A stretch of 64,000 nt of DNA, from positions 1-64,000 of the forward strand of contig CACMGP010000001.1 in assembly GCA_902613185.1 (NCBI GenBank). The letters are read 5' to 3'. The first letter of the stretch is position 1. Every line of letters begins with the position of its first letter. Below are positions 54,154-54,757 of this stretch, piece by piece. The position numbers and the translations under genes are program-made. The notes under the pieces are model-generated. The model was not told the origin of the DNA. It saw only the letters and a list, made by a program, of their open reading frames with translations, and did no database searches. The stretch comes from an uncultured Alphaproteobacteria bacterium. Its GTDB lineage: Bacteria; Pseudomonadota; Alphaproteobacteria; HIMB59.

Positions 54154-54181
54154 ATAAGGGTGATTTTATGATCACCCTTAT
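54154..54181. terminator. Bidirectional terminator between argD and the DsrE gene
   Basis: ATAAGGGTGAT (54154-54164) and ATCACCCTTAT (54171-54181) form a perfect 11-bp stem with a 6-nt loop (TTTATG). Convergent genes end at 54134 and 54192, so the hairpin can serve both strands. T-rich runs follow on the + side. Confidence 0.85.
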
Positions 54182-54191
54182 ATTTATAATT

Positions 54192-54569
54192 TTATAGAGT
54201 GATTACTTGATCTGGAGGATTACCACCAAGTGCATTGTATAATTGAGGAAAACATCCTGCCACTACACCATCAACCAAACCCTTAGCTTTTACATCACCA
54301 CTTCCGCATTGTTCAAGTGTTCCTTCAGCTAAATTTCTTCTAACTGCACAGGCATCGCAAACCATTAATAACATATTTTTTTCAATTGCAATTTTCGATA
54401 GTTTTTCACCAATAGGATCAGCCTTTTTTAAACAAAATATGTTGTCATCAAAGAAAAACATTCCTGCAACATCAACACCGTGAGAATTTGTCTCCAATTG
54501 TGGTAAAATCATTGTTCCTAGTTGGAATGTGCTCGACATACTTGTTTTAAAAACATAAGCAATTTTCAT
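54192..54569 (-). CDS. DsrE-family sulfur-relay-like protein
   Basis: A 125-aa small protein of the DsrE/DsrF-like fold (residues 1-70 alternate beta and alpha). It has Cys46, C71-D-A-C74-A, C88 and C106 (A-G-C-F-P-Q-L-Y), so several candidate persulfide carriers. The pattern resembles the DsrE-related group that I recall as SaoD in sulfur-oxidoreductase-linked clusters; that name is from memory and unverified. It has a strong Shine-Dalgarno (AAGGAG, complement of 54575-54580) and stands as a single-gene unit behind a two-copy operator. Confidence 0.75.
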   Translation of the reverse strand: MKIAYVFKTSMSSTFQLGTMILPQLETNSHGVDVAGMFFFDDNIFCLKKADPIGEKLSKIAIEKNMLLMVCDACAVRRNLAEGTLEQCGSGDVKAKGLVDGVVAGCFPQLYNALGGNPPDQVITL

Positions 54570-54598: not shown

Positions 54599-54650
54599 AT
54601 GTAATAATATTACATATATATGTAATAATATTACATAAATAAAAAGTCAA
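54599..54650 (-). promoter_or_regulatory. Promoter and tandem palindromic operators of the DsrE gene
   Basis: ATGTAATAATATTACAT, a perfect 17-bp palindrome around a central A, occurs twice (54599-54615 and 54620-54636) with an ATAT spacer. Centres are 21 bp apart, two helical turns, so two dimers could sit on the same face of the DNA. On the minus strand a -35 TTGACT (54650-54645) and a -10 TATTAC (54627-54622) are 17 bp apart, so the -10 box is inside the second palindrome. This is the layout of a repressor site; the length and A/T-type palindrome fit ArsR-type (SqrR/BigR) sulfide sensors, by inference. Confidence 0.75.
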
Positions 54651-54757
54651 GACTTGGTATTGAAAATTTTACCCATACCGTTTTCTGTCTCTGATACATT
54701 TGAAAGAGTAACTCATACTCAAATGATTAAAAGAGAGATTTAAAAAAACAGTTTAGA

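Follow-up and report, generated by a model that had tools for sequence, protein, structure and literature searches.

A pair of identical 17-bp palindromes upstream of a dsrE-family gene in an uncultured alphaproteobacterium (HIMB59 lineage) is very probably a double Zur operator, which would make dsrE a Zur-repressed zinc-starvation gene. The computed basis of this reading is a shared motif, conservation, the genes around dsrE and a Zur encoded in the genome; from these we infer physical binding of Zur, cooperativity and induction at dsrE. Taken as an operator, the pair belongs to a known class and is unremarkable within it; the interest lies in its target, a DsrE-family gene that sequence comparisons mark as a zinc-starvation gene in several phyla.

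Palindrome pair and promoter upstream of dsrE

The window (the whole stretch of DNA analysed, 64,000 nucleotides) contained the following features around dsrE:

54154..54181, no strand assigned: terminator-like stem-loop where the argD-like and dsrE genes converge
54192..54569, minus strand: SaoD/DsrE-family gene (NCBIfam NF040913), 125 aa
54573..54580, minus strand: Shine-Dalgarno sequence AAGGAGAT, read from sequence
54599..54615, no strand assigned: putative Zur box 1, ATGTAATAATATTACAT, promoter-distal; exact palindrome, motif common to znuA promoters
54620..54636, no strand assigned: putative Zur box 2, identical copy, overlapping the putative -10
54622..54627, minus strand: putative -10, TATTAC, within Zur box 2, 17 bp from TTGACT
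54642..54700, minus strand: decayed copy of the argB 3' end upstream of dsrE, spanning the -35 and aligning with an argB-dsrE junction in a relative (L055)
54645..54650, minus strand: -35-like TTGACT

The two copies of ATGTAATAATATTACAT, at 54599-54615 and 54620-54636, are exact, as described in the earlier note, and their centres lie 21 bp, or two helical turns, apart. The sequence is a perfect odd palindrome of 17 bp, with a central A flanked by 8-bp arms; no other odd 17-bp palindrome of the window recurs within 60 bp. The region is very AT-rich and neighbouring palindromes could fold, as would suit repeats that arose by chance or form a hairpin in the transcript, with no operator in the DNA; but a comparable close pair was found in 0 of 60 simulated windows (second-order Markov), and the pair is conserved before orthologs in unlike contexts and common to znuA. 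The conservation refutes this explanation, which is left with almost no probability.

The -10 box that had been proposed 17 bp from TTGACT, inside one of the copies, was found in that position (TATTAC, 54627-54622, in the upstream box), but the hexamer is weak, with 4 of 6 consensus positions, and was absent from the list of the consensus scanner; it is at most a probable dsrE -10. TTGACA or TTGACT also precedes the boxes in four congeners and in many SAR11 orthologs, and promoter overlap recurs with another geometry in six loci (L104, L106-L108, L110 and L111), where TTGACA and TATGAT are separated by 17 bp that the box occupies exactly. Zur box 1 likely covers the transcription start region. 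The Shine-Dalgarno sequence claimed for the gene was present (AAGGAGAT at 54580-54573). In L055, dsrE comes immediately after argB, whose final codons (CTTGACTATTAA) include the -35; in the window the two genes are separated by one resembling polysaccharide lyases (PF14099, 54822-56342).

The same palindrome at znuA and zur

Exact ATGTAATAATATTACAT had no copy outside the dsrE upstream region in the 1.35-Mb genome (92% complete), so that the scatter which would have spoken against an operator was not seen. A search of the whole genome returned one other tandem pair at two mismatches or fewer (C1:538585-538618), which was intergenic, between the divergent znuA and the znuC-znuB-zur operon. Because this sole other close tandem pair sits there, the palindrome was read as a Zur box. 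Weak matches to the 17-mer at C1:138960 and C5:29452 were taken as chance, as they had no tandem partner and a reversed-pattern control gave three.

The regulator was expected to be encoded elsewhere in the genome, and a zur gene was indeed located at G000:C1:540216-540629 (L007 10217-10630). Solved Zur proteins were the best matches to its product, ahead of Fur: 7dh7 (1.7e-18), which we take to be the Xanthomonas Zur, and 4mtd, the E. coli Zur (4.4e-16). Its score of 79.8 is under the strict NCBIfam Zur cutoff of 167, although this was still its best-scoring model. In the alignment, E. coli Zur His96, one of four ligands of the sensory site (the numbering is our assumption), had no aligned counterpart, and a Cys lies nearby. 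A Zur-like protein was also present in all nine of the dsrE-carrying close genomes checked. In G016 (92% complete), dsrE is accompanied by zur, whereas a search for znuA gave no match.

The earlier note had placed the pair under an ArsR-type (SqrR/BigR) sensor of reactive sulfur. Sulfur transfer is a known association of DsrE proteins, and L112 and L125 each have an ArsR-family gene close to dsrE; these are, however, distant genomes in which dsrE does not have this box. ArsR (PF01022) gave no match in the window's genome (92% complete, so that about 8% may be missing), with 14 of 14 positive controls matched, although PF01022 does not span every ArsR-like family. The same box at znuA and zur also argues against such a sensor, whose involvement we regard as extremely unlikely. 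Since znuA and znuCB-zur stand under this palindrome as well, the inducing signal is more consistent with zinc shortage than with the reactive sulfur first suggested, and the protein is most likely made under zinc shortage rather than on meeting reactive sulfur; sulfur chemistry is possible as the function of the protein, not as the inducing signal.

Only two Fur-family proteins were found in the genome, Zur and an Irr-like one (G000:C1:536822-537100), and the gene of the latter is also near the znu cluster, so that it too could be proposed to bind the pair. The box, however, is found at znuA and before znuCB-zur and tracks zur across genomes, and G016, G129 and G147 have dsrE, the box and a Zur-like protein with no Irr-like match (G129 and G147 being incomplete); binding by the Irr-like protein is therefore considered very unlikely.

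Within the dsrE motif lies the proteobacterial Zur core GT[TA]A-N5-T[TA]AC (also given as GTTA-N5-TAAC), as at znuA/zur promoters (PMC4176598), and the motif resembles the Paracoccus znuA/zur sites tested by EMSA, where two boxes are also present at the zur/znuA region (PMC5387054). It differs from the alphaproteobacterial Zur operators (Paracoccus, Caulobacter) in its AT-pure ATGTAATANTATTACAT form, its 21-bp tandem spacing and its DsrE-family target. Cooperative binding of two Zur dimers is known from E. coli, and the arrangement proposed here is like Zur2-znuABC in having two dimers per operator and a homologous Zur, but in E. coli the dimers occupy adjacent faces of one core element, whereas dsrE has two separate boxes two helical turns apart (PMC4219657). 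Multiple Zur boxes in a single promoter have precedents in other systems (PMC6103462).

Conservation of the box and gene neighbourhoods

In the four congeners with the gene, both boxes were exact and the 21-bp spacing was kept, while the 4-nt spacer and the flanks had drifted; the comparison of upstream regions in relatives thus bore out a real operator overlapping the promoter. The znuA genes of the window's order carry ATGTAATANTATAACAT or near variants. A matrix was built from 23 distinct znuA sites and no dsrE sites, and was applied to 80 NF040913 loci from named genomes. A score of at least 14 was reached by 50 of the 80 dsrE upstream regions versus 8 of 668 control regions, taken upstream of the other genes of these contigs; many of the 80 loci are close SAR11 relatives and not independent of one another, with about 35 distinct at 95% identity. 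Each of the 21 control sites with a score of at least 8 was at a znu/zur locus. A box of any described type and/or nearby zinc genes were seen at 72 of the 80 loci, and the remaining eight include L121, whose box is imperfect, and the locus from Prochlorococcus. Neither box nor zinc genes were seen at about six loci (L075, L105, L113, L120, L123 and L126), some of them on short contigs. Of the properties by which a Zur-regulated promoter was judged, dsrE showed a motif shared with the znuA/zur promoters of its own genome, boxes overlapping the core promoter elements, a Zur gene in the genome and conservation before orthologs.

Where it was checked, the dsrE box matched the znuA box of the same genome, in two genera of the order (g1 and g2), in SAR116 and in Prochlorococcus. 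Both promoters have a GTTATAACATTAC-like form in SAR116, and in Prochlorococcus AG-363-M17 both have an entirely different motif, TGAAAATGAT[AT]ATCATT, which is taken to be the cyanobacterial Zur type. This co-variation argues that dsrE follows Zur and not one fixed DNA word. In some lineages, ATGCAATANTATTGCAT or TTGCAA-N5-TTGCAA palindromes were present at dsrE; these are probable lineage variants with no established link to znuA, which was not found in six of these genomes. The TTGCAA-N5-TTGCAA form was seen upstream of dsrE in L077, L085, L086 and L090 (single-amplified genomes labelled Marinimicrobia or Verrucomicrobia), where it is possibly the Zur box of another lineage.

The gene itself is patchy, being found in 8 of 150 genomes drawn from the order, versus 110 of 150 with a ZnuA-family gene. 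In one case (G388:C2:165156-165530) the dsrE frame has one internal TAA and a Zur-like box is still upstream. No viral or phage carriers of the gene were found.

In 11 SAR11 loci (L094, L097, L098, L101, L103, L104, L106-L108, L110 and L111), dsrE lies within or beside a znuA-znuCB-zur cluster. In Nitrosomonas HPC101, dsrE and zur are divergent with a box between them, and in Thermomicrobium roseum dsrE comes after a gene of the Fur family and an ABC transporter for metal; as a counterpoint, these T. roseum neighbours may serve either zinc or manganese. A COG0523 GTPase is near dsrE in 16 loci (the sole one tested, in L109, scored 592 versus the ZigA cutoff of 600), and a HisI paralog in 8. 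COG0523 proteins and HisI paralogs are established members of Zur regulons, and dsrE neighbours such genes in several phyla, but the paper describing these clusters does not mention DsrE, and dsrE of the window's genome stands alone (PMC2770081). Only two weak cobW-type matches to COG0523, neither convincing, were obtained in that genome.

Several further genes accompany dsrE in relatives. In SAR11 loci (L078:5410-6549, and also L080, L083 and L102), dsrE is followed on its own strand by a gene of about 380-410 aa that matched neither Pfam nor NCBIfam. In L084 and L095, the genes after dsrE are related to each other; that of L084 is DUF1636 (PF07845) and a possible further zinc-starvation gene. 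A DUF1826 gene (PF08856) is divergent from the dsrE-COG0523 pair in L099, and its relatives are near dsrE in L100, L116, L117 and L121. In L017, a MerB-like gene (PF03243), a HisI paralog and COG0523 surround dsrE, which recalls the Sao genes among which SaoD was named. The MerB profile gave no match in the window's genome, nor did its positive control.

The DsrE-family protein and its probable place in zinc starvation

The protein matched NF040913 over its full length (1-125 of 125) with 195 bits versus a cutoff of 152. The sister model SaoD (NF040732) gave 114.7 bits, below its cutoff of 169, and the MerB gene that would add to the likeness to SaoD was seen in one relative only (L017). An AF2 model had a confident DsrE-type fold (pLDDT 94), and its best Foldseek match was TusD (2d1p_A, E 2.1e-5, TM 0.69), while a single-sequence search of the PDB gave no match and a profile search only weak ones. 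Cys71 aligns with a residue of DsrE 2hy5 (weak profile match, E 1.3) that we take to be Cys78, the known sulfur-carrying cysteine of that protein. The fold and the position of this cysteine are thus common to the TusD/DsrE carriers (2d1p, 2hy5); the protein differs from them in its roughly 17% identity, in the extra invariant Cys74, Cys88 and Cys106, and in its zinc-gene neighbourhood. In 32 aligned bacterial members, Cys71-x2-Cys74, Cys88, Cys106 and His30 were invariant.

Two functions were considered. A zinc-binding thiol protein (metallochaperone, scavenger or buffer) acting with ZnuABC/ZigA has a nearly even chance of being correct, given the invariant cysteines and histidine and the ZigA-type GTPase and znu genes adjoining dsrE, but the haloarchaeal homologue has no Cys88 and this function presumes that the cysteines are close in space. 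A persulfide sulfur carrier feeding a zinc-sparing or repair reaction in zinc starvation is a possible, less probable function. It would suit the nearest folds, TusD and DsrE, and the alignment of Cys71, as well as this haloarchaeal homologue, plasmid-borne (L195), which lies among TusA, rhodanese, YeeE/YedE, MoeB and MoaD/ThiS genes, a setting that is also a counterpoint to regulation by Zur. No TusA or TusBCE partners, however, were seen near bacterial members, and three more cysteines are invariant there that a simple carrier would not need. The balance tips slightly towards zinc or thiol handling beside ZnuABC/ZigA and away from sulfur transfer.

Regulation by Zur could then proceed as follows. 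When zinc is sufficient, two Zur dimers would bind the pair of boxes, sitting 21 bp from each other on the same side of the helix and covering the -10 and the start region and shutting off the one-gene dsrE unit. When zinc is short, Zur would lose its zinc and leave the DNA, and dsrE would be transcribed together with znuA and znuCB-zur. The product would be a small thiol protein of the cytoplasm with a DsrE/TusD fold, working beside ZnuABC and, where present, a ZigA-type COG0523 GTPase, and its cysteines may bind or transfer zinc, or serve as persulfide carriers in a step that spares zinc.

No link of DsrE to Zur or to zinc starvation, and no testable connection between a sulfur-carrier fold and zinc homeostasis, was found in the searchable literature, where co-mentions of zinc were incidental. 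Zinc uptake genes have been described as a unique exception to the loss of metal genes in SAR11 (PMC4771312). The Zur regulon of the streamlined marine genome studied here appears to consist only of zinc uptake and one DsrE-family protein, and this small regulon suggests that the protein matters where zinc is scarce in the surface ocean. An uncharacterised gene family would thereby gain a function class, zinc starvation, in a reading that spans several phyla, including SAR11 and Prochlorococcus. It is reasonably likely that the DsrE-fold family is a widespread, unrecognised part of bacterial zinc-starvation physiology, as a new type of zinc chaperone or as a step of sulfur transfer taking the place of a zinc-dependent one.
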